A stretch of 31,965 nt of DNA from a virus: positions 1 through 31,965 of IMG/VR virus record IMGVR_UViG_3300027782_000239, one strand, 5' to 3'. Below are positions 1 through 31,965 of the stretch, in pieces. Every line of letters begins with the position of its first letter. Positions within the stretch are counted from its first letter, which is position 1. The notes below the pieces were generated by a model that saw nothing but the letters and a program-made list of their open reading frames with translations, did no database searches and was not told the origin of the DNA. The translations under genes and the position numbers were made by a program.

Positions 1-177
1 GGAAAGTTCGACCGCGCAGTCGAAACAGTAGTGCCTTTTCTCATTCTTTGACTTAGGGTGAACACTGACAACAGTCCAGACTGCTTGCCTTCTTCCCTTT
101 TCAAACTCCGTTCCATAGTGTGCTTTGCAATAATCACACCAGATACCAACTTTTGTTCTAGTAACTGTCAAGGTCAT
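1..177 (-). CDS. CxxC zinc-ribbon protein, copy A (3' end cut by window edge)
   Basis: The first 59 codons of a small phage protein whose end lies outside the window. It starts with ATG at 177, inside the end of the DUF6378-like gene. Two CxxC pairs (CDYC near residue 14 and CFDC near residue 51) are spaced like a zinc ribbon. The full-length copy at 15,594-15,860 has 88 residues. The last full codon before the edge reads Leu-Ser here and Val-Ser in the other copies, which is the single mismatch of the 105-bp terminal repeat. Function is unknown; a nucleic-acid-binding role is only an inference from the zinc motif. Confidence 0.8.
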   Translation of the reverse strand, partial: MTLTVTRTKVGIWCDYCKAHYGTEFEKGRRQAVWTVVSVHPKSKNEKRHYCFDCAVELS

Positions 178-442
178 CCCAATCAGTTGATGCAATTTGT
201 CCAGCGATTGCAATGTAAGCTGCGCAGTCTTTGTAAGAGTCCTCGTGGTGAGGACTTTCTTGGATCCGTGCGACTTTGACGAGTGCCATGCAGATTGCGA
301 CTTGGTTTGGCTCGATTTGTACATCGAGATAACTTGACCAGAGTCTTGCAATGCGAAGGTGATTGATAGCTGGTGTGCCGTAGTCTGCACCTCTGTCGAG
401 GATAAGTCCTTTTGCTTCGTCAAGGATTTCATTGGCTTTCAT
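158..442 (-). CDS. DUF6378-like phage protein, copy A
   Basis: A 94-residue protein with the pattern of a short phage family I associate with DUF6378: an RG-DYG motif near residues 17-22, then NHLRIA, LWSSYL and a conserved run VAICMALVKVARIQ. No enzymatic function is established. It starts with ATG overlapping the stop of the upstream membrane-protein gene (ATGA). It differs from the copy B protein at only three positions (5, 12, 16). The last 20 bp overlap the start of the CxxC-protein gene. Confidence 0.82.
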   Translation of the reverse strand: MKANEILDEAKGLILDRGADYGTPAINHLRIARLWSSYLDVQIEPNQVAICMALVKVARIQESPHHEDSYKDCAAYIAIAGQIASTDWDDLDSY

Positions 443-582
443 TCTTGCCAGAACGCTTGTCGAGAGATATTGCGACCGCGTGTGTAACCTTCGCGCTTAC
501 CATCCTTGAAGCCTTGCCAGTACCAGATAAAGTTAGCGGATATAAATAACCCGACAACCCCTACAAAAGAAATCCAATTCAT
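439..582 (-). CDS. Small membrane protein, 47 aa, copy A
   Basis: A short gene starting with ATG at 582 after an AGGGG ribosome site six bases upstream. Residues 3-22 form a hydrophobic segment ending in WYW, followed by a basic tail (KDGKREGYTRGRN), so a single-span inner-membrane protein with a cytoplasmic basic tail is likely. The hydrophobic half differs from copy B while the 32 or so C-terminal residues are identical. Its stop overlaps the DUF6378-like start by ATGA. Function unknown; a lysis accessory or superinfection-exclusion role is possible but unsupported. Confidence 0.75.
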   Translation of the reverse strand: MNWISFVGVVGLFISANFIWYWQGFKDGKREGYTRGRNISRQAFWQE

Positions 583-654
583 TATTAGCCCCTAATGTGT
601 CGGTTCGTTCGACCTTCACACCTTTACGGTCTCACAGATAACTGACAGAATCAA
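583..654 (-). promoter_or_regulatory. Conserved non-coding leader, copy A
   Basis: One of the few real gaps in the copy. It is almost identical to 16,487-16,560 in copy B although the next gene downstream differs. It contains one of three GATAAC elements and a GGTCGAACGAACC stretch. I see no open frame across it. It probably carries a promoter or operator for the accessory and early genes below it, but no convincing -35/-10 pair can be assigned by eye. Confidence 0.4.
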
Positions 655-679
655 TTACATTTGATAACGAAATGATAAC
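637..679 (-). repeat. GATAAC triplet repeat, copy A
   Basis: GATAAC (plus-strand reading) occurs at 637-642, 663-668 and 674-679. The last two sit in an exact 8-bp direct repeat, TGATAACG, at an 11-bp period, about one helical turn. The same three sites with the same 26 and 11 bp spacings occur in copy B. They straddle the end of the 31-residue ORF and the leader, so they could bind a regulator. Two of the three overlap codons, so chance coding constraint is an alternative. Confidence 0.35.
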
Positions 680-750
680 GATTCTCCGAGATCTACTGCC
701 TCATCGAGCGTAGGTCGCAGTGGAACTATTGAATCAACGAGGCTTTCCAT
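655..750 (-). CDS. 31-residue conserved small ORF, copy A
   Basis: This ORF starts with ATG at 750, overlapping the end of the metallophosphoesterase gene by 17 bp, and has TAGG upstream as a weak ribosome site. Both copies keep the frame with only one residue change (Ser/Leu near residue 24); other base differences are silent. That pattern supports translation. The peptide is acidic in the middle (LDEAVDLGE) with no membrane segment. Function unknown. Confidence 0.45.
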   Translation of the reverse strand: MESLVDSIVPLRPTLDEAVDLGESLSFRYQM

Positions 751-1483
751 AGCGCCTACCACTGACAAGGAAAGTGCCATCCTTTTCGATATAGACAAGC
801 TGAACATTGACACGCTTGCCATCGGTCTCGATGGTTGCAAAGGCTTGTTGCCAGTTAGCCGTTCCCTTGGTGTATCCAGCCTGCTTGAAGTTCATCAGGT
901 TGCCTACTTCAACCCCATGGATAACACGCCCTAGAACGCCACCAGAGGCCTCTGTGAAGGCACTACGCCCTGCCCTATGAGTGTGTCCACATATGACGCT
1001 CTTGCCATGCCTACGCGCTGCGCCAAGGGCTGTAAGGCCAGCGTTAGGATTGATGCCCTGCTCATCCCCATGGATAGCAATCCAATTAGGTGCAATGGCC
1101 ATTGGCTTCTTATGGAATGTAATTCCTAATTCATCTAGGTGCATGAACTTTTCAAACTTCAATTCTGGCAATGCTAGAAATGCCGGTATCTTTTTCATAA
1201 TTACGTTGTATAGCCGGTCTGTGTGGTTAGACCGAATCATGTCTGTTACTTGTAAGTCGTATAGTGTCTGAACAGCAAGGTCGCGATCTTCTCCAAGAGT
1301 CTGCTCGTACCAGCCTGGTGTTCCTTCTGTCCATCGTGAGATCTGTGGTAAGTCGATTTCGTCGCCAATCGTGACGACTTTGTGAGGCTTCCAAGCGCGG
1401 ATAAACGCCCCAAGGTTTTTGACTGCGACTTCATCATGATACGGAACCTGTAAATCTGAAACGACTACAGTGCGTTGAATCAT
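734..1483 (-). CDS. Calcineurin-like metallophosphoesterase, copy A
   Basis: A 249-residue metal-dependent phosphoesterase. The motifs are in order: SDLQ (residues 9-12), GDEID (40-44), SNHTD in the first third, IHGDE and CGHTHR in the second half. The first motif has Gln where the classical family has D-x-H, so one metal ligand is substituted. Phage enzymes of this class are proposed to act on nucleic acid ends or cyclic nucleotides, but the substrate cannot be told here. Its start overlaps the stop of the acidic-protein gene (ATGA). Seven residues differ from copy B. Confidence 0.88.
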   Translation of the reverse strand: MIQRTVVVSDLQVPYHDEVAVKNLGAFIRAWKPHKVVTIGDEIDLPQISRWTEGTPGWYEQTLGEDRDLAVQTLYDLQVTDMIRSNHTDRLYNVIMKKIPAFLALPELKFEKFMHLDELGITFHKKPMAIAPNWIAIHGDEQGINPNAGLTALGAARRHGKSVICGHTHRAGRSAFTEASGGVLGRVIHGVEVGNLMNFKQAGYTKGTANWQQAFATIETDGKRVNVQLVYIEKDGTFLVSGRRYGKPR

Positions 1484-1701
1484 TCATCCTCATCATCTTC
1501 ATATGGGATAGAGTCAATCTTGTTAGGCAAGGCAGGAAGTAACCAGTCAGGATAAGTTGCGCGATCAGAGATGATGGCCAGACATATATCAATAGCAAAG
1601 CCAGCCCTGCGAAGGCTTTTGTAGAACTCATGCATGGCAATGCTGTACGCATCTAACTTAGAGTAAGTATCTAAATCAATGACCTTCTTAGTCCTTGCCA
1701 T
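1480..1701 (-). CDS. Unknown acidic-tailed protein, 73 aa, copy A
   Basis: I do not recognise this protein. The N-terminus is basic (MARTKKVIDLD), the middle looks helical (IAMHEFYKSLRRAGFAIDICLAII), and the C-terminus is strongly acidic (YEDDEDE). It lies between the membrane-protein pair and the metallophosphoesterase and overlaps the latter by 4 bp. The copy B version has one more residue (an extra Lys/Arg near position 4) and a few changes in the middle. Confidence 0.75.
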   Translation of the reverse strand: MARTKKVIDLDTYSKLDAYSIAMHEFYKSLRRAGFAIDICLAIISDRATYPDWLLPALPNKIDSIPYEDDEDE

Positions 1702-1709
1702 GGCAATAA

Positions 1710-1859
1710 TTATCGCTCTAGAAGTATGTTGTAAATCTCATCGACTCGCGCATTGAGTCGCTTTATTTCACCAAGCAGATGTGTAATTACATAACCTGCT
1801 AGTCCACCTACAATGCCAAGAGTGGCAATGTAGATAGTGAACATGTCATTAGATGTCAT
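1710..1859 (-). CDS. Small membrane protein with coiled coil (lysis accessory candidate), copy A
   Basis: A 49-residue protein with one membrane span at about residues 9-28 (YIATLGIVGGLAGYVITHLL) followed by a helical charged stretch with a heptad-like pattern (EIKRLNARVDEIYNILLER). It directly follows the holin candidate and overlaps it by 11 bp. Two small membrane proteins after an endolysin are common in actinophage lysis cassettes, so a second holin or spanin-like role is inferred. ATG at 1859 is preferred over upstream starts because it matches copy B. Confidence 0.72.
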   Translation of the reverse strand: MTSNDMFTIYIATLGIVGGLAGYVITHLLGEIKRLNARVDEIYNILLER

Positions 1860-2040
1860 TCTTACCAATACCCATTGCCTTATCTGTTGGAGATAACCAA
1901 CGAATGATTGGTGGTAAGCATGAGCCAAGTCCAGCAGCTATAAGCGCCTTAGGATCTGTCACTCCTGCTGCGTAAAGGCTCAACACCGATACAAGGAAGG
2001 CTCTAGCCCAAGAACCTGCTGCTGTCTTTAGTTCATTCAT
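1849..2040 (-). CDS. Putative holin, copy A
   Basis: A 63-residue protein with two hydrophobic stretches (about residues 12-26 and 31-47, separated by GVTDPK) and a short polar tail. The size, the pattern and the position just after the peptidase lysin fit a small actinophage holin, similar in style to r1t-type holins. It would form lesions in the inner membrane for endolysin release. The start overlaps the lysin gene by 8 bp. The tail (GIGKNDI) is longer than in copy B. Confidence 0.65.
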   Translation of the reverse strand: MNELKTAAGSWARAFLVSVLSLYAAGVTDPKALIAAGLGSCLPPIIRWLSPTDKAMGIGKNDI

Positions 2041-2458
2041 TCTTTCCCCCTAGCATAGGTATTTGAAAAAACTTACCATCAGCGTCAGCTTCTTTCGCAA
2101 ACGAGATGTGAATGTGGTGGTTGTGAGCATTGATGCCATCGTATTTGCGCCAAGCCCAACGCTTCTTTGCACTAGCAATCTTTCCCATGTGGATAATGTA
2201 AGTAATTCGCCGCTCGCCATTCTTAGCAGCAAGTCGTATCTGATCTGCCAGATATACGGACTGCCCTTTTTGCTTGGACAAGTCAGCATCAACGTCGATG
2301 GCGCGTACCCAACCCTCAGCATCTGGATTGTGATCAGAGACAGTTCTACTATGTCGGGTATCCCCAAGCCAGCCGTCTGATGTTCTATCTCTATCCGCGA
2401 AGGAATCATCTATCTGTAACCTAAGTTGTGAAGCAGCTTTACTGAGTCTTGGCTTCAT
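2033..2458 (-). CDS. M15-type peptidoglycan peptidase (endolysin), copy A
   Basis: A 141-residue protein resembling D-Ala-D-Ala carboxypeptidase or L-Ala-D-Glu peptidase lysins. Probable zinc ligands are His43 in SDHNPD, Asp55 in AIDVD and His117 in HHIHISF, in the usual H...D...HxH order. There is no cell-wall-binding domain. ATG at 2458 is chosen because GAGGA sits eight bases upstream; longer in-frame starts would run deep into the upstream tail gene. It already overlaps that gene by 20 bp. With the holin it would make the main lysis pair. Confidence 0.85.
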   Translation of the reverse strand: MKPRLSKAASQLRLQIDDSFADRDRTSDGWLGDTRHSRTVSDHNPDAEGWVRAIDVDADLSKQKGQSVYLADQIRLAAKNGERRITYIIHMGKIASAKKRWAWRKYDGINAHNHHIHISFAKEADADGKFFQIPMLGGKNE

Positions 2459-2741
2459 GGGAAGAATCCTCACATGTCCATAGACAAGTTGCCTCGTCAA
2501 GTATTGCAACGTCATGACACTTAGGTGCAATAAAAGCATCGCGTGCATGATTGTATGACATGCCTACGCCTGCGTAATTCTTACGAATCTTCCCGTTGTA
2601 TGAAGTGCGTTTGCATACTTGGTTACGGAAATTGCTGTACCAAGTCTCAGGGTCTAAGCCATCTATTAGTTCAGTTTCATCTTTACCTGTAATAACTTCG
2701 GTAACTATGTTATTAGAATCTAAAAAAGCATAATGAGCCAT
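2439..2741 (-). CDS. Tail-associated protein of the MAHYAFLD type, copy A
   Basis: A 100-residue protein opening with MAHYAFLDSNNIVTEVITG. This matches a small family common in marine and freshwater phages (cyanophages included), where it is found among virion genes. CKRTSYN, RKNYAG, DAFI-PKCHD and a terminal CLWTCED are the recognisable parts. Its exact structural role is unknown. The start shares one base with the stop of the glycine-rich gene (TAATG), suggesting coupled translation with the tail tip. Confidence 0.72.
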   Translation of the reverse strand: MAHYAFLDSNNIVTEVITGKDETELIDGLDPETWYSNFRNQVCKRTSYNGKIRKNYAGVGMSYNHARDAFIAPKCHDVAILDEATCLWTCEDSSHEAKTQ

Positions 2742-3631
2742 TAGATAGTTACCGTTCCTGTTCCTGCGGTAAATGAATAAATCTTGTAACCGCCAGTTGT
2801 AGTTTTTGCGTAAGTCAAACCGCCGCCAATAGTTGTTAAATCAGCTTGTGAATCGGGGTAACGGATGATGACAATTCCAGAACCTCCATTACCACCGTTA
2901 CCCGTGTGATTAGTTAGGAAAGCACCGCCACCGCCGCCGCCACCAGTGTTAGCTGTACCTGCAGTTCCATTGTTATTACCACCGCCTGCACCTGCTCCAC
3001 CGCCGCCGCCAGAACCACCTGCGCCAGCAGTGCCACCAAATGTTGTTGCTCCACCGCCACCACCAGCATAAGTAACTGCGCTGCCTGAATATGAATTAGA
3101 TGTGCCAGCGCCACCTGTGCCACCTGTTGTACTTGTTCCATTACCGCCTACAGCACCTGCTCCGCCACCACCACCGTTACCATAATTAGGTGCGCTTCCA
3201 CCTGCTGCGCTTCCACCATTGTTACCTTGTGATGGAGATGTTGATGGGGTATTGCCTGCTGCACCTGAAAAAGGCGATGGAAAAAAAGAACCGCCACCGC
3301 CAGAACCACCAGCGCCTGGCCCACCTGAAGCTGCTTGACCAGTTCCATAGCCACCGCCTGCACTTGTTATTGTGCTAAATACCGAGCTACTTCCTTGTGT
3401 TCCTGCAACACCAGCAGAGCCATTACTTCCACCAGAACCACCACCACCTACGGTTACAGTAAATGATCCGCTAATTGCAAAGGCTGTTGATGTACGGAAT
3501 CCACCAGCACCACCGCCAGAACCACCAGCGTTACCAGCACCACCACCACCTGCAACTACAAGGTAATCAACAGATGTAGGTGGTACGGCTACTTGGCCTT
3601 TGTGTTGTGCTGCAATTATTGTGCCAATCAT
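2741..3631 (-). CDS. Glycine-rich tail-tip / adhesin-like protein, copy A
   Basis: A 296-residue protein. After a short N-terminal part with VDYLVVAGGGGAG, about 200 residues are runs of Gly with Ser, Ala, Thr and Asn; it ends with GIVIIRYPDS and a short beta-rich tail. Glycine-rich domains of this kind pack as polyglycine-II helices in phage adhesins and sit at the fibre or tail tip, so a receptor-contact role is likely. ATG at 3631 shares a base with the upstream stop. The Gly-rich part differs widely from copy B, while the ends are similar. Confidence 0.72.
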   Translation of the reverse strand: MIGTIIAAQHKGQVAVPPTSVDYLVVAGGGGAGNAGGSGGGAGGFRTSTAFAISGSFTVTVGGGGSGGSNGSAGVAGTQGSSSVFSTITSAGGGYGTGQAASGGPGAGGSGGGGSFFPSPFSGAAGNTPSTSPSQGNNGGSAAGGSAPNYGNGGGGGAGAVGGNGTSTTGGTGGAGTSNSYSGSAVTYAGGGGGATTFGGTAGAGGSGGGGGAGAGGGNNNGTAGTANTGGGGGGGAFLTNHTGNGGNGGSGIVIIRYPDSQADLTTIGGGLTYAKTTTGGYKIYSFTAGTGTVTI

Positions 3632-4020
3632 TATGCGATTGCTCCCACTACATACCATGTATCAGTTGCAACTTTAATACAGGCAGCGCTCTTATATTGT
3701 GCAAGGGTAGGAGATGCGGCAGTTGCGCCAGCACTAAGTACGGTAGTAGTACCGCTAGTTACCGCTGAAATTGTGCAAGTACCAGCACCAATATTTAGCA
3801 CGGTAATAACTGATCCGACAGGAATAGCCACGGATGCGTTAGTTGGAATCTTAAAGGCTATCGCTGTTGCCTTGTTCATCTGTACAAGTGTCTGATATGA
3901 ATCTGCTAATACTGCTGTGTAATCGGCAGTCTGTGTTGTTTGCAATGTGAACGACACAAGGCCATTGAACATTGCAGCGCTCATCACGTCACCGGTTATT
4001 GCTGGAAATCCTGTTGCCAT
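3631..4020 (-). CDS. Small tail/fibre protein, 129 aa, copy A
   Basis: A protein rich in Thr, Ala, Val and Ile with a beta-strand look and no charged core. It opens with MATGFPAITGDVMSAAMFNGLV, a pattern seen in small tail-fibre or collar proteins of environmental phages. Position between a minor tail protein and the glycine-rich tip supports a distal tail location. The first 20 or so residues are shared with copy B; much of the rest has diverged. No enzymatic motif is visible. Confidence 0.6.
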   Translation of the reverse strand: MATGFPAITGDVMSAAMFNGLVSFTLQTTQTADYTAVLADSYQTLVQMNKATAIAFKIPTNASVAIPVGSVITVLNIGAGTCTISAVTSGTTTVLSAGATAASPTLAQYKSAACIKVATDTWYVVGAIA

Positions 4021-4029
4021 TATTACTCC

Positions 4030-5289
4030 TTAGTATGATAAAACGCTAGTGCCAAGGATACCGTATAGGGAACTTCCTATAATGAATCCATCGATGATTG
4101 GTTCTTGCGTGGTGAGGGTTGTTTTCCAAGTGTTAGGTGTAATTGCATGAGCGATGCCTTGGACTTGGAGAGTCTTAGTTATTGTAGATCCGCCGGGCTG
4201 TGTGTTAGTTATCTGGACTTGGTCAAAGTAATCAAGGTCAAGAGCTGCCGTAACCCCAGTTGTGTAACTGGCAGTCATCAAGTCAAGGGTCATAGAGTCA
4301 ATGCGAATAGTTGTGTCTTTATGTGATGCTACATAGGCTCTAGCTATGTTGAGTGCTTCTTCATCGGACTCAACAATTAGGTTTGAGTATGATAGGCTAT
4401 GGGTAAAATAGGTCGTAACGCTTGCGCTATCGGTTGATGTTTGAGCAGTACCACCAGTGCGCTGTGCAGATACGTTATTGACTACCTGCTTGTCATCAAA
4501 GGCAAAGGCTACGTTTGCATAATTAATGCCAGTGCCATCCTGATTAAAAATAGTCGGGGCAGTGGCAGCAGCCGCTAAAACCTGAGAGCGAGACTTGAAG
4601 ACTGCAACGCCATTAGGATCCATGTAGAAAGCGCCATACTCCGACTGCTCTACATTACGAGCTGCTTGAAGCACTGAACGCACTGAAGTATCAACAGATG
4701 ACGCTTGGCAGGTTGAACTGCCAGTTGCAATTGTTCTCATGCTTGAAGGCCATGACACCATGTCCAAAATTCTGCCTAAACGTGTGCCAGTTGTTTCTGA
4801 TGCTACGCCACCAGTGATTGTCGTGATGTTAGACATATTGAACAAGCGGAAGGCATCGACGCAGGAAATGTCCACATAGGCAATGTCTTGACCTACTGGA
4901 TAAGTGTAGCGATAGTCAGTTGTATAGCCTGAGAAGATGTTGTAAGCAGTACCGTTGTCAGCAGTGATGCGTACTTTTCTGAGGGGCTGTAAGTAGGTGT
5001 AGTAAGGCGATGTAGTGTTCTGTGGATTGAAGTCACCATTAGGGTCTAATACACGTATAACAGCAGTGCCAGCCTCATAAAGGTCTTGATTGATGTTTCT
5101 GCCTCTGCGTGTGTCAATCTTGATTGTCTGAGCCGTTACATCAGCAATGAGGGCTGGTGTTGTGCTAGCGCCTAAAGTTCCTATGCCACCAAGTTTTCCG
5201 TAGAGCGGATCACCAATTGTAAATGGGACACCAAATATCGGGCCATCTGAGAAGTTGATAGTTACCGTAAGGGTTGCTGGCAAGGCCAT
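4030..5289 (-). CDS. Minor tail protein downstream of tape measure, copy A
   Basis: A 419-residue structural protein immediately after the tape measure, the usual place for a distal tail or tail-hub protein. The N-terminal 170 residues (IKIDTRRGRNINQDLYEAG, NGDFNPQNT, FSGYTTDYRYTY) resemble minor tail proteins of small actinophages. The C-terminal part is beta-rich with DLDYFDQVQITN. Start ATG shares one base with the tape measure stop. It differs from copy B by scattered substitutions only. The hub assignment rests on position. Confidence 0.75.
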   Translation of the reverse strand: MALPATLTVTINFSDGPIFGVPFTIGDPLYGKLGGIGTLGASTTPALIADVTAQTIKIDTRRGRNINQDLYEAGTAVIRVLDPNGDFNPQNTTSPYYTYLQPLRKVRITADNGTAYNIFSGYTTDYRYTYPVGQDIAYVDISCVDAFRLFNMSNITTITGGVASETTGTRLGRILDMVSWPSSMRTIATGSSTCQASSVDTSVRSVLQAARNVEQSEYGAFYMDPNGVAVFKSRSQVLAAAATAPTIFNQDGTGINYANVAFAFDDKQVVNNVSAQRTGGTAQTSTDSASVTTYFTHSLSYSNLIVESDEEALNIARAYVASHKDTTIRIDSMTLDLMTASYTTGVTAALDLDYFDQVQITNTQPGGSTITKTLQVQGIAHAITPNTWKTTLTTQEPIIDGFIIGSSLYGILGTSVLSY

Positions 5290-6791
5290 TAGAGAACCCT
5301 AACGCCAGACCAACTACCGCCTGAACCGCCTGATTGAGAAGATGTTTCTAAAGATGCGCCAAGCATTGTTGCAAGGTCGCGTTCAGTAATTACGTTACCT
5401 TGTGGATAGATATTGACGACGGTCGGTAAGTTAGTTGCAAGTCCACCTGCTTGACCACGATAAGCACTGTCAAATTGTCCACCAACTGCAGCATCCATTG
5501 GATTATTAGTCATAGGTGTGGTTACTGGTGCGCTCGGTGGCGATGGTTGTCCTTGAACAGGAATGCCAAGTTTAGCAATTTGTGCTGCTATCTTCTCTAG
5601 GTAATCTAACCACTCAGTAAATGGATTCTTGGCGCTAGGCAAGTTTTTTAGGTAAATAGATAATTCTTTAGTCTTGCCTTCAACGTTTGCAAGTTCATTG
5701 GCAATACGCACAACCTCATCAGCATTGCCGCTAAGAATCGCCATCTGTAATTCTAAACGCTTACGATCTTCTTCTGATACTTTGCCTTTTAGTGCTGCAA
5801 CAATTTGAATTTGTGCAAGGTCAAAAATGGCTGATGCTTTCTTGACAAGAGCTGAATCCTTTTGTGATTTTAGTAATGCTTTCTGCTGTGCAGCTATTGC
5901 AGCGGCTCTCTTCTTGGCATCTGTTTCAGCCTTTATTGCTGCTGCTTTATTAGACGCAGTTAGATCTTGATTGGCAATGGTTGTACTCATGCCAAATGGC
6001 TTTGCTACTGTAAAGCCTTTACGAAACTCACTAAAGGATAGAACCTGTATAACTCTAGCTGCATATTCAGCAGCAGTTTGCATCTTTAGAACAAGACCAT
6101 CCACGCTCTTTGAACCTGAGACTGTAACCAAAGCATCGACAAGAGACTTACCTATAATTTCAGATGCGTTCTCTGAGGCTATTGATAGTTTGTTTATCTG
6201 TGCTGTATAACTGTTAGCGGCTAATACACCCTGTCCAGCAAACAACTGTGTGAGTTTTGCTTGGATATCAGCGAATGAAGCACTGGCTAATTCAGTCTTA
6301 GTAAGTCCAAGGTTGAGTTGTCTAAGTCCACGAGTGTTGCCTACATAGGCCTGTGATAATGCCTGAGAAACGGTAACAATGTCGAGGCCAGTTGCAGCCG
6401 TTACGTCAAGACTTTGATTGAGAATCTCTTGTGACTTTGCAAGTGAGCCAGTAGTCTGCAATATCTTTACATATGCAGGTTGTAACTGATCACGATTGAT
6501 GCCGGTAATCTGTTCGAGGGTGTTGAGATAAGCATTGGCATTTGCTGTGCCAAAGGCTAATCCAAGGTTCTTGATGCTCTGAGTAAGTCGTGTAGTTTCA
6601 CCTTCTTGTTCAGCAAATGCTCGCACCGCAGTCTTTGAATAATTGACTAAGGCTCGTGTGCCAAAGGCAAGACCAAATGCTGAAGCTAATTGCTTAGCAG
6701 ATCTTGTCAGACTTGCTGTTGCTTTATCAGCCTTACTAAATGCCTTCTTGCCAGTGAACTCAGCAGCTAAATCAATCTTTACTACTGGCAT
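5289..6791 (-). CDS. Tape measure protein (500 aa), copy A
   Basis: This is the longest tail gene, rich in Ala, Lys and Gln and mostly helical. The N-terminus (VVKIDLAAEFTGKKAF) and the block with YLNTLEQITGINRDQLQPAY are typical of short tape measures. Using about 1.5 angstrom per residue, the tail would be near 75 nm (inference). The last 70 or so residues are nearly identical to copy B, as is the block around KRAAAIAAQQKALL. The stretch between about 230 and 270 is different and about 31 residues shorter. Confidence 0.88.
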   Translation of the reverse strand: MPVVKIDLAAEFTGKKAFSKADKATASLTRSAKQLASAFGLAFGTRALVNYSKTAVRAFAEQEGETTRLTQSIKNLGLAFGTANANAYLNTLEQITGINRDQLQPAYVKILQTTGSLAKSQEILNQSLDVTAATGLDIVTVSQALSQAYVGNTRGLRQLNLGLTKTELASASFADIQAKLTQLFAGQGVLAANSYTAQINKLSIASENASEIIGKSLVDALVTVSGSKSVDGLVLKMQTAAEYAARVIQVLSFSEFRKGFTVAKPFGMSTTIANQDLTASNKAAAIKAETDAKKRAAAIAAQQKALLKSQKDSALVKKASAIFDLAQIQIVAALKGKVSEEDRKRLELQMAILSGNADEVVRIANELANVEGKTKELSIYLKNLPSAKNPFTEWLDYLEKIAAQIAKLGIPVQGQPSPPSAPVTTPMTNNPMDAAVGGQFDSAYRGQAGGLATNLPTVVNIYPQGNVITERDLATMLGASLETSSQSGGSGGSWSGVRVL

Positions 6792-24411: not shown

Positions 24412-24413
24412 AA

Positions 24414-24809
24414 CTAACTCCAACTCGTAAGGATTGATACGGACATTTCACATGTAAGCAAGTCACCAGATGCAGCGTTGAGAACGCTTGGTGCAGAGAC
24501 TGTGCCTACATTGAAAACTATGCTTGATGCAGCTAATAAACTAAATGCCTTGACTACGAAATCCTCAATACCGTTGAGGTTGCCTTCGTTATCAAAAAGC
24601 GGACAGGTCAGCATAACCTTAAAGTTAGCCATTGGTGATATTGAAGTTTGTGAATTATTTGTAGGCGTGATATATGGATCATCAGGGCTAACAATGCATG
24701 AGTTGGCAGTAATTGTGGCAGGCGGAAATGCGTAAGTTGCCCATCGTGTGTTATCTACTAATGCAGTTGCAAGTGTAGTTCTAAGAGTAGTTATCGCTGG
24801 TGTAGGCAT
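24414..24809 (-). CDS. Head-tail joining / tail terminator-like protein, copy B
   Basis: 131 residues, differing from copy A in the ATYAFPPATITANS segment and at one position near 90. Here the start follows the adaptor stop directly instead of sharing a base. The strongly conserved C-terminal half probably contacts the tail tube or connector ring. Confidence 0.62.
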   Translation of the reverse strand: MPTPAITTLRTTLATALVDNTRWATYAFPPATITANSCIVSPDDPYITPTNNSQTSISPMANFKVMLTCPLFDNEGNLNGIEDFVVKAFSLLAASSIVFNVGTVSAPSVLNAASGDLLTCEMSVSILTSWS

Positions 24810-25373
24810 TTACCCGACCATACTGCGAGGGTCTGTTGCATGAGCGATGAGACCACGAATCTTTGCAAGAAGGCTGTTAGACATGCGCCAAGGTGAAGCA
24901 CTGCCATCGATTGCAACGCCACCTGATGATGGCACTTGGCGTGCTTGAAATATATCTACTGAAAGCATAAGTGATGCTTCTTGAATTGCTGAGTCAGCTG
25001 TCCAATCAGTTGTTGTATCACCTGTGACTAAACCGTATGGATAAAGTGTATTTTTGTCTGTTGCTGTTGCAGCTGAAATTGTATAAGTAATGCTCAATTC
25101 AGAAACTGCTGTAATTGTCTTTGTGCCATTCCATGCAGAACCACAATTTGTAATGACTACTGAGTCTCCAACAATAAAGTCATGAGCAGTCTCAAAATAT
25201 AATGTTGCCGTAGTTGTGGTCTTTGAATGTGCTATTGCAAACTCACTTTTGACCCAAAGCATTGGAAGTAGGACTGCATCTGATGCGTCGCACACTTCCT
25301 GCAATATCGCGTCACTATACAAAGAACCAACGCCAAGAACCGCCTTGAGTTCTGCAATTGTTGTAAGTGACAT
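24810..25373 (-). CDS. Head-tail connector (adaptor) protein, copy B
   Basis: 187 residues with the same helical ends as copy A. The beta-rich central insert (about residues 50-115) carries most of the substitutions (for example ETAHDFIVGDSVVITN), so it is likely exposed. Start ATG has AAAGGAAAT upstream. Confidence 0.68.
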   Translation of the reverse strand: MSLTTIAELKAVLGVGSLYSDAILQEVCDASDAVLLPMLWVKSEFAIAHSKTTTTATLYFETAHDFIVGDSVVITNCGSAWNGTKTITAVSELSITYTISAATATDKNTLYPYGLVTGDTTTDWTADSAIQEASLMLSVDIFQARQVPSSGGVAIDGSASPWRMSNSLLAKIRGLIAHATDPRSMVG

Positions 25374-25392
25374 TATTTCCTTTCTAAAGACC

Positions 25393-25421
25393 CAGTGAGG
25401 GCAAGGGCTATGCCCCCACTG
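25393..25421 (-). terminator. Conserved hairpin after the capsid gene, copy B
   Basis: Identical stem and loop to copy A although the capsid coding sequence just upstream has diverged beyond easy alignment. A conserved RNA fold is therefore more likely than shared ancestry alone. Possible partial terminator or mRNA-end protector. Confidence 0.6.
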
Positions 25422-25440
25422 AGCGACTTAGTTACTGCTA

Positions 25441-27012
25441 TTAGGCAGTCATGTTATAGCGACGAACACCCTTGCCAGACTTGCCAACATAAATTGCCAA
25501 GTAGCCATAAAGTGCAATCTGGATTTGACCAGTTGCAAGCAAGTTCACACGAAGGTTAGTTGCTGGTGATTCCCATGTGTAGACAGAACCTGGTGCGACG
25601 AGGAATGCTGACTCGTCAATAAGTCCTGAAGTTGCGATGTTGTGATCTACGATAAGTGAAGTACCGAGAACATTTCCAACAACACTTGAAGGCACGACTG
25701 CACCTGATGCGTTAGTTGTCTGGCCTTGTGCTGAATACAATGAACGTCCAGTTGTATCTGCGTAACCAGTAATTGCAGCCCACTGATCTGTCGAAGCAAT
25801 TAGCTTGTTAGCGTAATCTCCACCAGTTCCCTTGTATGCTGCTGCGCCTTCAACTGAAATAAATGATTGAAGTCCTGCTGCTGTTGTTGCAACTGATGTT
25901 GCTTGTGTTCCTGAAGATGTGAATGCAGCGATAAGTGCGTTATCTGTTGCCTTCTCATAAGCCTTGCGGAGTTCAGCCATTAGGAGTTCCATGAATGCAG
26001 GTGAACTTCTGTCAATGAGCTCAAAAGATACTTCATTTAATCCGCTGTACTTTTGTACAGAAATCGTGTCATAGGCTGAGGTCATCCCAGTTTCTGATGT
26101 TGCTGCGCCTTCATTGACTGCTGCAACTGTTGGTGCAGTGTTTGCTGAAGATGCGTTTGTGTAAAGGCGTGGAATAGTGAAAGACATTCCGTCAATTCCT
26201 GCAAGTGATCCACGAGTTACTGCCTCGAATGATGGACGACCTGTAAATGTATCTGTTAGGAAAGTATTTAGGTGTGACGGTAATGTCACGCCTGTATTTG
26301 TTGAAGTGCTGTCATCAGCTGCAAGAACAGTGCGACGAGCTGAATCGTCTCCCATTGCTGCTTTGATGTTTGCATCAAGATATTGTGCGGATGTGATTGG
26401 TGCTACGCGCTCGCGCACGTTTGTAACAGCAACAGTTGGGCGAGCAGCTTCTACAGCCGATGCCTCAACTTCTGGAGCCGCTACTGTCTCAGGAGTATTC
26501 TCCACGACTGTCTCGCTTTCTGTTGGTTGGATTTCTACAACTGGGAGGACTTCCTCAGCTGCAATTTCAAGTACCTGTGCTGTTTTGAACGCAGGTTCGG
26601 TGACTAAACTGACTTCTTTTAATTTAGCCAAACTTACAACGATATGACCATCGCGTGATGGCTTGGATGCAATGATTTCTGCACCTACTGAAAGACCGCT
26701 TACAAGTCCTTCTTGAGCCATAACAAGTGCATCGTTACCACCTGTTGAACGTGAAAGTTTGAATGTTGCATAAATGCCATCTGGTCGAACTGTTGCAGTA
26801 ACCATGCGTCCGACAGGCTTCTTCATGTCGTGCTGTGATAGCAATTTGATTTTGCTTGGATCAGCAATATCAATTGAACCAGCCTCGAATACGACTCCGC
26901 CCATATTTGTCTGACCAACTTCGCCTGTTCCCATTGGCACAATCTTGCCTGAGATTTCGCGACGTTCTTCGCTGCACTCAATTGATGAGGCTTCAATAAT
27001 TAGTTGTTCCAT
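25441..27012 (-). CDS. Maturation protease fused to HK97-type major capsid protein, copy B
   Basis: A 523-residue fusion. The protease part keeps LLSQHD, GLSVGAE and LKEVSLVTEPAF and matches copy A closely. The linker (EVLPVVEIQPTESETVVENT) is variable, and the capsid part (from about residue 205) is of another subtype: LPSHLNTFLTDTFTGRPSFE and SGLNEVSFELIDRSSPAFMELL, ending VRRYNMTA. The overall fold order is kept. The swap point lies near the VEAARPTV stretch that both copies share. Confidence 0.85.
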   Translation of the reverse strand: MEQLIIEASSIECSEERREISGKIVPMGTGEVGQTNMGGVVFEAGSIDIADPSKIKLLSQHDMKKPVGRMVTATVRPDGIYATFKLSRSTGGNDALVMAQEGLVSGLSVGAEIIASKPSRDGHIVVSLAKLKEVSLVTEPAFKTAQVLEIAAEEVLPVVEIQPTESETVVENTPETVAAPEVEASAVEAARPTVAVTNVRERVAPITSAQYLDANIKAAMGDDSARRTVLAADDSTSTNTGVTLPSHLNTFLTDTFTGRPSFEAVTRGSLAGIDGMSFTIPRLYTNASSANTAPTVAAVNEGAATSETGMTSAYDTISVQKYSGLNEVSFELIDRSSPAFMELLMAELRKAYEKATDNALIAAFTSSGTQATSVATTAAGLQSFISVEGAAAYKGTGGDYANKLIASTDQWAAITGYADTTGRSLYSAQGQTTNASGAVVPSSVVGNVLGTSLIVDHNIATSGLIDESAFLVAPGSVYTWESPATNLRVNLLATGQIQIALYGYLAIYVGKSGKGVRRYNMTA

Positions 27013-28139
27013 TAGAGTCCTTCACTTCCATTAGGAGTTAGATCAGTCATGCCCATTGCTTGTTCAGTTGTAATGAGTTCAAGAGTTAGTAATTTTTCAA
27101 TTACTGTAAGTTCCACTATTGGGTCGCTCTTGAGGAATGTGTCATAAACTGCAAAGCGCACTTCATGGCCTGAAGTTGATATATCGTCCATTGAAAGTCT
27201 TGACTGGACGCATTGAATGTAAGGCTCGATGGATAGTGCGTAAAATTGTTTGCGTTCGTCTTGGACGTTTGCATAAGTCATTGTTGTGTTCATGTCTGAA
27301 GACAAGTAATAAGCAGGAACGTTGCATAGACGTGCAACTTGTGTACTCAATGTCTGAATCGCGTCGTTGTACATCATGTCTTTAGGACTAAATGAAACAG
27401 GAGCATAATCTAAAGTTGAAGTTAAAAATGCAGTTGAATTATTTTGACGTGCTCGTTTCCAAGCTGAGAGAAGTCCTTGAACTTCGCTAGGAGGAAGATC
27501 GGCTCCTGAGTTCTTAAGATAGCCCGCAGGTTGTGGATTAGCGGAGTTCTGAGAAGCTGCGCGTTCTACATCAATTGCTGATTGAATTGTGCGACTACCA
27601 CGTTCTAGAACGCCTTCATCGAATCCTTGTATTGTAACAATGTCATTCATAGATACAGGATTCATGTCCATGTAATACTGAGTGACCATGATGCCTTCTA
27701 AGTCAGTTGTAAATGTGACGCGAGAATTAGCAATCCATTCGAAAGCAGCAGGTCGTCCGTCCTCGCTGTAGCGTTCCGTTACCAAAAGGTAGGACACGCC
27801 GTAGAACATTAAGGAATCAATTATCCAGCTGAGAGTAATAAAAGATGGTTGATTTTTGGAAAGTTGATTGATCCAACGAGGAGCTGCAATAACTTCACCA
27901 GTAGATTTTTTGTAATACTCCAACGGTATGGATGCAACTGTTCCGCAGATTAGGTTGCGTGCTCGCGCTACGCTTGGCACTGTCATCGCATCATGGCGCG
28001 AGACCCTTGCAAAGATGGCGTTGTAAAGCGAAGGCATGTTCTCGCCCATGACCTGTGGGTTATATTGCGCTTCTACAGTCGCCTTATTATTAGATGATAC
28101 CGTCCGCGAAAATATACCCATAGACAGAAAGGATACCAT
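27012..28139 (-). CDS. Portal protein (HK97 type), copy B
   Basis: 375 residues. Shares the extreme N-terminus MVSFLSMGIFSR with copy A (same invariant DNA block), then diverges until TVASIPLEYYKKSTGE; DLPPSEVQGLLSAWKRARQNNSTA and MTYANVQDERKQ are the best conserved parts. Start may be ATG 28,139 or 28,121. Its last base pair is shared with the fusion-capsid start. Confidence 0.88.
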   Translation of the reverse strand: MVSFLSMGIFSRTVSSNNKATVEAQYNPQVMGENMPSLYNAIFARVSRHDAMTVPSVARARNLICGTVASIPLEYYKKSTGEVIAAPRWINQLSKNQPSFITLSWIIDSLMFYGVSYLLVTERYSEDGRPAAFEWIANSRVTFTTDLEGIMVTQYYMDMNPVSMNDIVTIQGFDEGVLERGSRTIQSAIDVERAASQNSANPQPAGYLKNSGADLPPSEVQGLLSAWKRARQNNSTAFLTSTLDYAPVSFSPKDMMYNDAIQTLSTQVARLCNVPAYYLSSDMNTTMTYANVQDERKQFYALSIEPYIQCVQSRLSMDDISTSGHEVRFAVYDTFLKSDPIVELTVIEKLLTLELITTEQAMGMTDLTPNGSEGL

Positions 28140-28158
28140 TTGTCAAGTTATTAGACAA
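28105..28158 (-). promoter_or_regulatory. 54-bp invariant block at portal start, copy B
   Basis: Base-for-base the same as 11,925-11,978, bounded on both sides by differing sequence. It includes both candidate portal ATGs and a TTGACA hexamer on the coding strand. Confidence 0.45.
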
Positions 28159-28177
28159 GTCACACTTGCGTGTCTAA
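28151..28177 (-). promoter_or_regulatory. TTAGACA-N13-TGTCTAA dyad at terminase-portal junction, copy B
   Basis: Same 7-bp arms and 13-base spacing as copy A, with most spacer bases changed. An inner ACAC-GCAA-GTGT hairpin exists only in this copy. The left arm holds the terminase stop TAG. Confidence 0.45.
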
Positions 28178-29598
28178 GTGTATATCTGTGCTACAGACTG
28201 AGGTTTCATTAGATGGCTTACGACCATGGCAATGGAGATTGGTGCTGATACATCTCCTGCGCTCTTGCGTTTGACAATACGCCATGCTGAGTCATTGACT
28301 TTAGCTGCGCAGTTGTTGAACTGCTGAATAAGTTCATCTTGTCCATTGTGAACAATCTTGTGATTTACCAATCCATCTAACAGATCACCACACGCTTGAT
28401 AGAACTGCTGACCAGAACAGTCCATGGTTACAACTCCAGCATTGGCTAAGCGTTCAGCAATTGATGCAGTTGTGTATTTGTCAAACAAGACCAGTCGAGG
28501 ACGATAAATGTCAGCCCATCCTTTTATACTTGCTGCAATCCTTAGATCATCTACAGCAACCTGTGATTCAAAGGTTTCTAGGATTCCAATAGCAATTTTG
28601 CCATCTGGCATCATCTGTCCAGCAACTAACGATGCGTTTCTTCTGCTAGGTGAAACATCAAAGCCAAACATTGTCAAGGCTCCTGGTGTTATCGTCAAAG
28701 TGCTATCGCTTGTCTCTTCCAAGACTCCATGAGGCCAAGGACTGCTAAGAGAATCAATCCATTGACAGAGCGTTTCAGTTCGAGTGTTTTCTATTGGTGA
28801 AGTCGATATTGCTTCTTCAATGGCTTCTTCCGTAATTGTGTAGCCCAGTGCTGGATTGGCTTGCGCCCATGCAACACGATCATTAATTTTGCAATACTGA
28901 GGTGCTGAGTATTCATAGAATCCAAAAGACTTAGGTGGATGGTCTAGCGCTCTTTCTCTGAGATCATTGAGAACCTTGCTAAACGCGTCACCTGCATTCG
29001 ACGTTAGCAGAATATGGGAACCAGCATGGGCGCGAGTTGTCGGCATTGCAGCTCTATAGCCCTCTTCATCGATTTCACGTAACTCATCAATAAATAACAA
29101 GCCATTGACAGTGCGACCACGAGAACCATCACGAGTTGATGCAACAACATCTAAGCGAGCACCAGATAACATCTCAATTGACTCTGTACCGTTTGCGTAA
29201 CGAATCTGTTTGACAAAACCCTTTAGGTGGTCGTTGGTTTCAATCAGCTGAGTGACTTGTCTAAAGGTATCTAAGGCCATAGATCTATTACTTGACATTA
29301 TGAGAACGTTTGTCTCCCATTTGATTAGATGAGCCAAAATAAGCATGCGAGCAAGGTGAGTCTTGCCATTCTGACGTGCTACAAGGATGAGATTGGTCTT
29401 GCGTATCCAGAGTCCAGCCTTATCCACCATCAACATGTCTTTTAGCACATATTCCTGCCATGGGAGTAAATCAATCCCAACTATGGTGCATAAATCCTTG
29501 ACATCTTGTAATTTGTTTTTGCCTGTGAGAAATGGCGTGTAGAGCCTTGGTTTCGTTGCCCCCAGTAGCTTCTTGGACTTTTTGGGTTTATTCGTCAT
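28174..29598 (-). CDS. terL: Terminase large subunit, copy B
   Basis: 474 residues, collinear with copy A without gaps. Differences include Walker A context (ARQNGKTH for SRQNGKTH), a few residues in the first 70, and the last four residues (QIYT for AIYG). The nuclease Asp in FGFDVSPSRRNAS and all ATPase residues are retained. Packaging specificity of the two copies is therefore probably the same. Confidence 0.95.
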   Translation of the reverse strand: MTNKPKKSKKLLGATKPRLYTPFLTGKNKLQDVKDLCTIVGIDLLPWQEYVLKDMLMVDKAGLWIRKTNLILVARQNGKTHLARMLILAHLIKWETNVLIMSSNRSMALDTFRQVTQLIETNDHLKGFVKQIRYANGTESIEMLSGARLDVVASTRDGSRGRTVNGLLFIDELREIDEEGYRAAMPTTRAHAGSHILLTSNAGDAFSKVLNDLRERALDHPPKSFGFYEYSAPQYCKINDRVAWAQANPALGYTITEEAIEEAISTSPIENTRTETLCQWIDSLSSPWPHGVLEETSDSTLTITPGALTMFGFDVSPSRRNASLVAGQMMPDGKIAIGILETFESQVAVDDLRIAASIKGWADIYRPRLVLFDKYTTASIAERLANAGVVTMDCSGQQFYQACGDLLDGLVNHKIVHNGQDELIQQFNNCAAKVNDSAWRIVKRKSAGDVSAPISIAMVVSHLMKPQSVAQIYT

Positions 29599-29933
29599 TG
29601 ACTCGGATTAGGTCGGGCAGTAAATGGACTGTCTTGGTGAACCTTTGAGCGTGTTAGGGAGGCGGAGACTGGAAAGACAGGGGGGGTGAACGCTGGTGCT
29701 AAAAAAGAGCCTGCTGAGCGCGAACCTTTTGATGAATTGCATCGCTTACAACAAGCCACCATGTTCTCCATGTTCATTGCTTGGTCTGGTGCTTTACTCA
29801 CTGGAATTATGTGATCCACTGTGGTGGCTGGTTGTTGGCAGTAATAACAAGTCCACTGATCACGAGATAACACACTGAGTCTTATCTTTCGATAGCTGCG
29901 TGTATCTCTAGGGTCATTACTCTTTAGTGCCAA
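29595..29933 (-). CDS. HNH endonuclease, copy B
   Basis: About 112 residues with the same zinc and DHIIP motifs as copy A. The codon matching the copy A ATG is TTG at 29,933, with GGAAG eight bases upstream; an ATG at 29,966 would give 11 more residues but has no clear ribosome site. The stop overlaps the terminase start by 4 bp (ATGA). The tail ends PNPSQ in place of PNPI. Confidence 0.85.
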   Translation of the reverse strand: MALKSNDPRDTRSYRKIRLSVLSRDQWTCYYCQQPATTVDHIIPVSKAPDQAMNMENMVACCKRCNSSKGSRSAGSFLAPAFTPPVFPVSASLTRSKVHQDSPFTARPNPSQ

Positions 29934-30355
29934 TTGTATTTCTTCCAATGATCTAATGCAGCGCATGTATCTGGTTGCCCATCTATCTTGCCATAACGAT
30001 GTGCTATGTAAGCCAATCCCCAGTCTATCTGTTGCAATGGTGTAGCTGTGGCCAACCATTCACTTCTACCCTGTGGAATACCATGATGAGATCCATTACG
30101 CGCATCAGCGCGCCATGCACTTTCTTTACCATAAAGTGTAGATATACATTTGTAATGGTCTTTAGTTAGTTGTGCTTTTGCATACTGTTTTGCACTCATG
30201 TTTATATCTGGTGCATCAGCCGATGCTGGTAAGCATAGAGCTGCCCCAATAGCTAAACTAGCGGTCGCGAGCAGTCGGCTGAAGCCGCTCGCTAGCGAGT
30301 TATAGCGTACCCGACGTGTCAAGTTAGAGCGTGAATCTTGGGAGTTTCTTGTCAT
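29924..30355 (-). CDS. Secreted lytic-transglycosylase-like protein, copy B
   Basis: 143 residues with a signal peptide almost identical to copy A, including at the DNA level, and the same KESAW, HHGIPQG and YIAHRYG blocks. The mature domain has more differences (SAWRADARNGS, ATPLQQIDWGLAY). The unequal conservation of signal and enzyme halves is odd and may reflect the palindromic island beneath the signal region. Confidence 0.82.
   Translation of the reverse strand: MTRNSQDSRSNLTRRVRYNSLASGFSRLLATASLAIGAALCLPASADAPDINMSAKQYAKAQLTKDHYKCISTLYGKESAWRADARNGSHHGIPQGRSEWLATATPLQQIDWGLAYIAHRYGKIDGQPDTCAALDHWKKYNWH
30258..30295. repeat. GC-rich palindromic island in transglycosylase signal region, copy B
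   Basis: Same 38 bp as in copy A without a change. The surrounding block, from about 30,240 to 30,410, is almost free of differences, including silent sites, which marks it as one of the most constrained DNA segments of the unit. Confidence 0.45.
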
Positions 30356-30522
30356 TTATCTTTACCCCATCCTTTGCCCTTGAAGATTGCAGCTGTTGGT
30401 TGGTATAGGCGAATCATTACGGACTTACATTTGCAATAGACTGCTTCACCTAAATCAGTGATGGATCGTGTAACTTCCTTGGTTTTATTGCATGACATAC
30501 ATTTATATTCATAGACTGGCAT
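30352..30522 (-). CDS. FmdB-like zinc ribbon protein, 56 aa, copy B
   Basis: MPVYEYKCMSC start, CKC at 30-32 and the IFKGKGWG end. Six residues differ from copy A, all outside the cysteines. Overlaps both neighbours, as in copy A. Confidence 0.85.
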   Translation of the reverse strand: MPVYEYKCMSCNKTKEVTRSITDLGEAVYCKCKSVMIRLYQPTAAIFKGKGWGKDK

Positions 30523-30937
30523 TTCTTTCATCCTCTATTCTACATGTGCTACATATTGCAGTAATCCATGAACCGCATTGCGTACAACGGTTTATTTGTA
30601 GTGATGCTTTCGAATAACCTGCTTGAAGCAATAGCACGATCAGGTCGTCGAATCTGAGCATTGCTCCATACTGCGAAGCATCTTCCCCTTGCCCATTGAA
30701 TCGCATAACAACAATCGGTAATTCCCCAACAACCGAACGTTGCTTGACCTGATCGAGCCAAGCTTTAGGTTGGAAAGCAGAGCGAGCCTTTACTTCAAGG
30801 TCGAACGGAACCCCAGTAATGTCCTTGCCCTGCCTACCAGCCCCAGCTGACTCAGCGTGTTCCCACCACTGAGCCAGATATTGTGCTACTACTCGCTGTG
30901 TGCGATAGCCGCGATGTTTTCTGCTTTGACTAGCCAT
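30509..30937 (-). CDS. PD-(D/E)XK nuclease with C-terminal zinc ribbon, copy B
   Basis: 142 residues. Keeps GRQGKDITGVPFDLEVKAR and the C-terminal CTQCGSW-ICSTC ribbon. One residue shorter than copy A after the WLDQV motif (QRSVVGELPIVV). ATG at 30,937 overlaps the upstream stop by 8 bp. Confidence 0.75.
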   Translation of the reverse strand: MASQSRKHRGYRTQRVVAQYLAQWWEHAESAGAGRQGKDITGVPFDLEVKARSAFQPKAWLDQVKQRSVVGELPIVVMRFNGQGEDASQYGAMLRFDDLIVLLLQAGYSKASLQINRCTQCGSWITAICSTCRIEDERNASL

Positions 30938-31160
30938 TGACCGCATGACACTTGACACATTGCCAGACTGTGTAGACAGGATTATCCAAGTCCACGTCAA
31001 TCCGAATGTCAGTGACTAAGACTGGCACGTTACACATTTGACATGTAATCCACTGCTCAGGTTTAGCGTATGGATCATGTACAACATCTTTCAAGTAATG
31101 ATCACCTAGTACAACTGGTGGCATGTCCTCACCGTCGCGAAAGACTTCGATATATCCCAT
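30930..31160 (-). CDS. CxxC zinc-finger-like protein, 76 aa, copy B
   Basis: CQMC and CVKC pairs retained; the variable loop between them reads DLDNPVYTVW here and DLTFETNAVW in copy A. Same length despite that, so the spacing of the two knuckles seems to matter. Confidence 0.75.
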   Translation of the reverse strand: MGYIEVFRDGEDMPPVVLGDHYLKDVVHDPYAKPEQWITCQMCNVPVLVTDIRIDVDLDNPVYTVWQCVKCHAVNG

Positions 31161-31166
31161 CAGTGG

Positions 31167-31787
31167 TTACTTCTTATCCCACTGTGCTGGACATTGCTCA
31201 GACCTTGGTGCGGCATCAGCTGCACAGACCCAACCAGAGTATTCACCCTTGGCATTTGTGCCCTTCTTGCGAATCATTCCACCATGCTGACATTTAGGTG
31301 CAACTGGCACTGGCTTAGCCCCGAGTTCTTCCTGCAATAATGCAATCGCATCAGCTGCTTGTGTTGGTTGCTTGACTTTCTTGTCACCGTAGATTTCCCA
31401 TGTCGATGCAAACGATGCTGCATCTAGTTCTGGTACTACAACTAAACCTTGTACAGGATGTTGTACAACCTTTTTCATTTCTTCTCTAGATGGACGTTTG
31501 CCTTTAGCTGCAAGATTCGCGTTTGCAAGCGCTCTGCCGATTGCTGAAGTTTCGCAGTTCTCCAATGCGCTAGTTGCATTGACACCGCGATCAGAAATTT
31601 TCTCCTCAGCGAGTCCTGTGGAGTACGCGACGCTATCGAGATAAGTCCTAAAAAGGTATGCCTGAACAATATATTGACCACCTTGAAACGAAATGAGTTC
31701 AGTCGATATACGACCATCTGGATTTTCCTTCCACCATCGATCTAAACGTTCTTCTACTGGTTCATAATCTTCAAGATTGAATGCCAT
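31167..31787 (-). CDS. ERF-like ssDNA annealing/binding protein, copy B
   Basis: 206 residues, starting with ATG (GTG in copy A) after GAGGAG. The first 140 or so residues are the same as copy A; differences gather in the last 70, around a possible Cys-rich zinc site (CQHGGMIRKKGTNAKG, GWVCAADAAP). The constant part would be the DNA-annealing domain and the tail a linker or partner-binding region. Confidence 0.68.
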   Translation of the reverse strand: MAFNLEDYEPVEERLDRWWKENPDGRISTELISFQGGQYIVQAYLFRTYLDSVAYSTGLAEEKISDRGVNATSALENCETSAIGRALANANLAAKGKRPSREEMKKVVQHPVQGLVVVPELDAASFASTWEIYGDKKVKQPTQAADAIALLQEELGAKPVPVAPKCQHGGMIRKKGTNAKGEYSGWVCAADAAPRSEQCPAQWDKK

Positions 31788-31965
31788 TTGGTAACTCCTC
31801 TTGGCTTAGTAGTGCATCAACCTGCTCAGTTAGAGGCCAATGTGTGCCGTCAGGCCATAGGGAAACTTCGACCGCGCAGTCGAAACAGTAGTGCCTTTTC
31901 TCATTCTTTGACTTAGGGTGAACACTGACAACAGTCCAGACTGCTTGCCTTCTTCCCTTTTCAAA
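31771..31965 (-). CDS. CxxC zinc-ribbon protein (5' end cut by window edge)
   Basis: The last 64 residues of the 88-residue CxxC protein, with CFDC and the LWPDGTHWPLTEQ tail; the first CxxC pair lies beyond the window. It ends inside the start of the ERF-like gene. Relative to the full copy it has Ala for Ser and Asn for Ser in the tail, so it is a third distinct version of this C-terminus. Confidence 0.8.
   Translation of the reverse strand, partial: FEKGRRQAVWTVVSVHPKSKNEKRHYCFDCAVEVSLWPDGTHWPLTEQVDALLSQEELPNGIQS
31861..31965. repeat. Third partial repeat at window end (overlap with window start)
   Basis: These 105 bases match 1-105 except at one position (C at 31,866, G at 6) and match 15,684-15,788 exactly. 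They show that the sequence re-enters the phage unit. Either the molecule is circular or permuted, or a third copy follows. The mismatch means it is not a simple identical assembler overlap with base 1. Confidence 0.9.

Follow-up and report, generated by a model that had tools for sequence, protein, structure and literature searches.

The viral record IMGVR_UViG_3300027782_000239 of IMG/VR, analysed here over its entire length of 31,965 bases (the window), probably combines, through an assembly join, two co-occurring strains of a small (~16 kb) tailed phage of probable cohesive-end (cos) type, whose genomes appear to be joined at a shared 99-base stretch, termed S. To judge from the sequence, a new kind of inherited double genome is most likely not what the record represents. 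The first-pass annotation had described two full gene sets, collinear and in the same direction with substantial divergence, and this description is confirmed by self-BLAST, by MAFFT alignment and by the comparison of 24 gene pairs. Likewise, the unit sizes of about 15.7 and 16.2 kb given there agree with closures of 15,683 and 16,177 bp. Of the origins it proposed, the one preferred as simplest, two strains joined in assembly, has the best support here, and its interpretation stands in part; a real mixed dimer retains a small share of the probability. The repeated contig ends, the three copies of S, the cos alternative and the diverged tandem units of related records are additions to that annotation.

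The two collinear gene sets, copy A and copy B, are both intact, both lie on the minus strand and together fill the whole contig, besides the 105 final bases, which repeat the contig start. Self-BLAST aligns the copies in long blocks at offsets of ~15.7–16.2 kb with an identity of 84–93% across most of the unit, decreasing to ~71% in parts of the portal, the capsid and the gene at the tape-measure position. In the whole-length MAFFT alignment, 12,384 of 16,469 columns are identical with gap columns counted (~75%). All 24 gene pairs compared possess a single, terminal stop codon in both copies, and their protein identity ranges from 50 to 98%. The synonymous divergence (dS) extends from 0.07 in the DUF6378 gene to 2.0 in the gene pair 3631/19559, and the ratio of nonsynonymous to synonymous divergence (dN/dS) lies between 0.04 and 0.47 in every pair. 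Both copies thus look functional and under purifying selection, and the uneven divergence, with its strong signal in dS, has the pattern expected of mosaic strains. Two simple origins of a tandem arrangement are rejected on these values. A replicating concatemer of one phage is expected to contain identical copies, and against a recent duplication stand a dS of up to 2.0 and the existence, in other samples, of terminases nearer to each copy.

The stretch S occurs exactly three times, at the contig start, at the A/B junction and at the contig end. The final 105 bases of the contig equal the first 105 except for one mismatch at position 6, which is G, with C at the matching positions 15689 and 31866. 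Copy A closes on itself through positions 1–105 and 15684–15788 (104/105 identical) to form a circle of 15,683 bp, and copy B closes through 15676–15788 and 31853–31965 (113/113 identical) to form a circle of 16,177 bp. The whole contig can also be closed, as a circle of 31,860 bases, with 104/105 identical bases. To the left of S, the last base separating the right end of A from that of B is 15675; to the right, contig start and junction can first be told apart at 109/15792. Thus S at the start, the junction and the end allows each copy to close alone, as expected if the assembly graph contained two circular strains with a repeat in common.

The surroundings of S are also those in which two strains are difficult to separate. 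At scales of 300, 400 and 600 bases, the most similar stretch of A and B ends at S (15181–15781, 97.7% over 600 bases), so that the strains are hardest to separate at the junction; at the 150-base scale, the most similar stretches are 163–313 and 14077–14227. Six exact matches of 102–114 bases exist between the copies in addition to the 99-base match of start and end, and none is longer. The strains can therefore be confused in a graph with k near 99, but should stay apart at k = 127. Genes follow an ordinary order across the junction, since the related contig L103 is collinear with 14169–16265 at 90% identity.

These features can be explained by a simple path. Each strain would have been present as closed or end-joined DNA, giving a circular path in the assembly graph, and both circles would share S, as 99–102 identical bases beside the most similar part of both genomes. 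The assembler would then have walked S – A – S – B – S and written the walk out as one contig. One wrong join at S accounts for the start, the junction and the end together, for which reason the join is placed there. The contig start, the contig end and the A/B boundary are all located at S; that the strain switch and the wrong join occurred at S rather than at cos, and that no molecule carrying both A and B existed, we infer. Strain-chimeric metagenome contigs are a known system, as breaks at regions common to different genomes and chimeric assembly joins are likewise named in the COBRA paper, and in its simulations of such common regions the fragmented contigs mostly retain end sequences of maxK bases (PMC10914622). 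The window differs in joining two whole genomes, ~75% identical over the alignment.

Searches of IMG/VR with the terminases of A and B gave at least 80 loci each and at least 91 distinct contigs combined, the longest of those listed having 18,301 bp. The two terminases are 95–96% identical to each other. Among the matches listed, the terminase of L003, from another sample, is 97% identical to A and 95% to B, that of L004 is 97% identical to B and 95% to A, those of L005 and L006 are 92–95% identical to both, and the next relatives fall to 82%. A and B are, on these terminase sequences, members of a small clade, each with a nearer terminase relative in another sample. These separate relatives, together with the intact gene sets, the ordinary gene order at the junction and the one-unit circles among related records described below, support the join of two strains at S.

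The related records were surveyed at length. The survey comprises 49 of the 53 listed IMG/VR records of at least 15.0 kb and the window, 50 in total, a sample chosen by length and hence favouring records with more than one unit; four of them (G004, G018, G032 and G039) are distant, with terminases ~30% identical. Nineteen of the 50 close as one-unit circles, with end repeats of 72 to 1,723 bases (123 and 127 being common) that are at least 98% identical. Another 19 have no end redundancy, and 12 contain diverged redundancy, the window included (11 of the 49 others). The 12 records with diverged redundancy, the window being one of them, are G000, G001, G003, G004, G006, G007, G008, G009, G010, G017, G045 and G049, that of G017 being merely 764 bases at 96%. 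The nearest parallel is G001 (L185/L186; 29,664 bp), in which tandem genomes of different clades are partly alignable at ~65% nucleotide identity. Further records with diverged second units or parts of units are G006 (L304), G007 (L296/L297), G008 (L298) and G045 (L428).

Several observations weigh against a wrong join of two strains at S. The closure of A is imperfect at position 6 and requires a third haplotype or an end error; this G matches neither closure exactly. If reads link T15675 to C15689, the right end of A has C and its left end G. Position 6 had been considered as proof of the join at S and was dropped from that role, as the mismatch falls on one closure whether the join lies at S or at cos. 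In addition, the contig ends match each other at 104/105 bases, as those of a true two-unit circle would. The lineage argument depends on the terminase, since L003 as a whole is mosaic: its nucleotide blocks match B in one 9-kb block at 85%, and A at 77% in the portal–capsid part and 91% in 7244–9297. Phasing of A against B across S or cos by means of relatives failed, with L003–L006, L103 and L104 all mosaic and their single blocks 67–94% identical, and the IMG/VR matches listed contain no complete genome from the small clade of the window. Finally, joins of different genomes at cos, as seen in relatives, would yield the same layout.

The probable position of cos is indicated by a pile-up of contig ends. 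Among the 91 terminase contigs, 32 begin at the identical base, which precedes the start codon of the terminase by 74 bases, and in contigs running further this base is directly preceded by the 13 bases CCCCCCTGTCTTT. In the search based on the gp49-like gene, 15 of 80 loci end in '...AC' just before such a site, five of these 15 representing another end type, and 7 of 80 end inside or shortly after the 13-base motif. The 13 bases between both classes of contig ends would be consistent with a 3' overhang lost during end repair, and CCCCCCTGTCTTT, where contigs of many samples begin or end, is the probable cos overhang. Of the 50 long records, 33 contain its nine-base core CCCCCTGTC; eight of the 17 lacking it are closed circles, and other end sequences or end types therefore exist. 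The distant record G004 (L302; right end as in L128) stops at '...GACAC' like L121 and L141, another end type. In copy A, the left genome end would begin at 13492, the position to which base 1 of L003 aligns. HNH proteins assist terminases in cutting such cohesive ends.

Among lambdoid or P2-type phages, an overhang common to different phages allows their genomes to be linked by the ends, as shown with purified DNA; here, such joins are deduced from contigs. Eight records contain two motif sites each. In G003 (L187; 1–128 and 15773–15900), both right ends are the same over 114/114 bases, which is all the contig holds, and the left ends differ (201/308 columns identical) from the first base past the overhang. 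In G010 (L300), the left ends agree at 180/181 bases and the right ends differ (247/307 identical); the divergence starts ten bases before the overhang, and nine identical bases adjoin the overhang. G003 and G010 are mirror-image cases, in which one genome end has two partner ends, at cos in G003 or within ten bases of it in G010, with the caution that two strains happening to share one end would look alike. A complete unit with other sequence on both sides exists in G006 (55.6% and 55.0%), G007 (58.2% and 52.5%) and G008 (67.9% and 84.0%). The left side of G027 is a same-genome crossing (140/141), and G023 is uninformative on joins at the motif sites. In G001, a G030-like genome is collinear to 15101 and is replaced by another clade by 15436, with the cos site at 15350. 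The samples of G006 (3300007735) and G008 (3300011115) are Lake Soyang viromes of unamplified virion DNA, assembled with SPAdes at k 27 to 127 (PMC7553992). Amplification chimeras are therefore unlikely in these two records, and their joins are either real molecules or low-k assembly errors. Titles and abstract openings of the open-licence literature contain nothing to the point on mixed sticky-end joins in viromes, which is no proof of absence.

This precedent (G003, G010, G006, G007, G008 and G001, with G006 and G008 from the unamplified virion libraries) favours a join at cos in the window as well, an unlikely explanation on balance and the most serious rival of the join at S. One real genome, M, would span the 16,180 bp between the cos sites (from 29672 down to 13493), and the remaining sequence would form the other, N. 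The right end of M would have been linked to the left end of N, and the right end of N to the left end of M, via the conserved 13-base sticky end, either because virion DNA annealed and was ligated while the library was prepared or because the assembly passed through this short conserved site. That the contig begins and ends at S would then follow only from S being shared by M and N. Two reciprocal wrong joins are needed, however, against one at S, and the mismatch at position 6 would persist in the closure of N. Neither flank of the window cos sites is identical (86.7% and 86.3% over 300 bases), so that these flanks show no switch there and are uninformative on its location. Meanwhile, the 19 one-unit circles show that crossing of the end region within the same genome is common.

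The join may also have existed as a real molecule in a co-infected cell, A and B having recombined as circles or ends at S or been ligated at cos, and a 32-kb heteroconcatemer having replicated before cleavage by terminase at cos released units of 16 kb. The conserved probable cos, the diverged redundancy in 11 of the 49 other long records and the match of the window ends at 104/105, as for a two-unit circle, are consistent with such a dimer, and the very uneven dS (0.07 to 2.0) suggests segment exchange between strains of this kind. It is nevertheless improbable: among the 50 records surveyed, near-identical ends at two-unit length occur in the window and in no other; units packaged from cos to cos are 16 kb, so that virions would presumably lose the dimer; and joins in the tube or in the graph account for the same contigs more cheaply. 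The first-pass annotation had regarded a mixed dimer as something new, a claim weakened by the recurrence of diverged tandem units in related records. Far less credible is a stable 32-kb genome, or a pair of adjacent prophages, with diverged duplicate gene sets. In its favour, both gene sets are intact and the ends overlap, but one-unit closure is seen in 19 of the 50 long records, and A and B each have a nearer terminase relative elsewhere. The option of adjacent prophages, also raised in the first pass, is rejected, as both units fill the whole contig, no host flank is present, the record ends overlap and no integrase is recognised among the 20 window proteins scanned, which did not include all small open reading frames (ORFs). 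The slightest share of all is left to readings beyond these.

Table 1. Features of the window (positions in the 31,965-base record).
Feature	Position	Strand	Basis or remark
Copy A, complete unit of 15,683 bp	1..15683	-	gene sets, self-comparison, own closure
Copy B, complete unit of 16,177 bp	15684..31860	-	gene sets, self-comparison, own closure
S copy 1 (contig start)	7..105	.	exact 99-base repeat
S copy 2 (A/B junction)	15690..15788	.	exact 99-base repeat
S copy 3 (contig end)	31867..31965	.	exact 99-base repeat
Inferred cos overhang CCCCCCTGTCTTT, copy A, within 3' part of HNH gene	13493..13505	-	contig-end pile-up
Inferred cos overhang, copy B; left genome end from 29672	29673..29685	-	contig-end pile-up
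Large terminase, copy A, 474 aa	11994..13418	-	PHROG 9, E 6.7e-59
Large terminase, copy B	28174..29598	-	protein 95% identical to copy A, dS 0.80, dN/dS 0.06
Portal, copy A	10844..11959	-	PHROG 12
Portal, copy B	27012..28139	-	PHROG 12; protein 57% identical to copy A
Major capsid protein fused to head-maturation protease, copy A	9303..10844	-	PHROG 2263 and 80
Capsid–protease fusion, copy B	25441..27012	-	PHROG 2263 and 80; protein 53% identical to copy A
HNH endonuclease, copy A, abuts terminase start	13418..13786	-	PF01844 above cut-off
HNH endonuclease, copy B	29595..29963	-	protein 94% identical to copy A
Metallophosphoesterase, copy A	734..1483	-	PHROG 221
Metallophosphoesterase, copy B	16640..17389	-	protein 97% identical to copy A
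DUF6378 protein, copy A	158..442	-	PF19905
DUF6378 protein, copy B	15841..16125	-	protein 97% identical to copy A, dS 0.07, lowest of 24 pairs

The gene content of both units is that of an HK97-type tailed phage (Caudoviricetes), with a large terminase, a portal and a capsid with protease (PHROG 9, 12, 2263 and 80). Ten window proteins were scanned against each of two libraries, 20 in total (18 from copy A, 2 from copy B), with the small ORFs partly covered. From the large terminase, the order on the minus strand is portal, capsid–protease fusion, small genes, the gene at the tape-measure position and the gene at the tail position, followed by a glycine-rich gene, a PHROG 32486 gene, metallophosphoesterase, DUF6378, the gp49-like gene, a Zn ribbon, the HNH endonuclease and the next terminase. 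The small genes after the capsid are taken as head–tail genes by position. The gene at the tape-measure position has no PHROG match, and the gene at the tail position matches PHROG 5313, the glycine-rich gene PHROG 2295 and its neighbour PHROG 32486, all three of unknown function. The gp49-like gene matches mycobacteriophage gp49 below threshold (25.4 bits against a cut-off of 27). ARAGORN detected no tRNA in the window.

Among 50,697 phage records, 1,311 match the terminase, all at less than 60% identity and the best listed at ~30%, and most of them are from actinobacterial hosts. Siphophage-type phages of Actinobacteria (isolates on Microbacterium, Gordonia, Arthrobacter and Mycobacterium) possess a large terminase homologous to that of the window, and differ in this best listed identity and in size, the listed isolates being ~41–46 kb and the window units ~16 kb. 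For a tail protein, matches were found in just two records, those of a Pontimonas phage (27% identity) and of a Microcystis phage (30%). In a search of genome contigs for a host or monomers with the terminase of the window, none of 18 stretches encodes a relative. The same search with an alignment of 12 terminases gave 14 loci, 12 of them only 24–32% identical. One locus, L334 (CAIXTG010000145.1), is a unit-length contig of 15,902 bp in a metagenome-assembled genome (MAG) of the uncultured actinobacterium UppL4_bin-798, with a terminase 59% identical; a second contig of this MAG has a terminase match of 62% over 81 residues. The binning of L334 with an actinobacterium MAG hints at the host group. 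With no close isolate, mostly actinobacterial phage matches and a terminase at 59% on an actinobacterium-binned contig, an actinobacterial host is likely. The setting is probably freshwater, as indicated by relatives such as the Lake Soyang records rather than by the sample of the window itself. In freshwater metagenomes, complete phage genomes of ~15 kb, called miniphages, form a reported size peak, and 15 of them are counted among the predicted actinophages, with only contigs showing evidence of a circular genome retained (Kavagutti et al. 2019, PMC6802176). The likeness of these miniphages to the window units of 15.7 and 16.2 kb is one of genome size. Phage isolates of Nanopelagicales are ~39 kb (PMC10202952).

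Before genome size, gene count or taxonomy is derived from it, the record should be divided into its two genomes of ~15.7 and 16.2 kb; a check for repeated k-mers would probably not flag it, because the copies differ. Since 12 of the 50 length-selected records contain diverged redundancy, composite viral contigs seem to arise repeatedly in this family from conserved sticky ends and shared stretches, and the mixed joins that recur at such an end are a more interesting by-product than the composite itself. A bolder interpretation, to which the evidence lends little probability, is that one 13-base sticky end is public among many of the small freshwater phages in this family and that co-infecting species or strains would be ligated through it into replicating and recombining mixed concatemers; cos would then be a routine exchange point for whole genome ends, and the window one mixed dimer caught in the cell. 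If part of such joins occur in cells, they would provide a direct route for mixing phage genomes.

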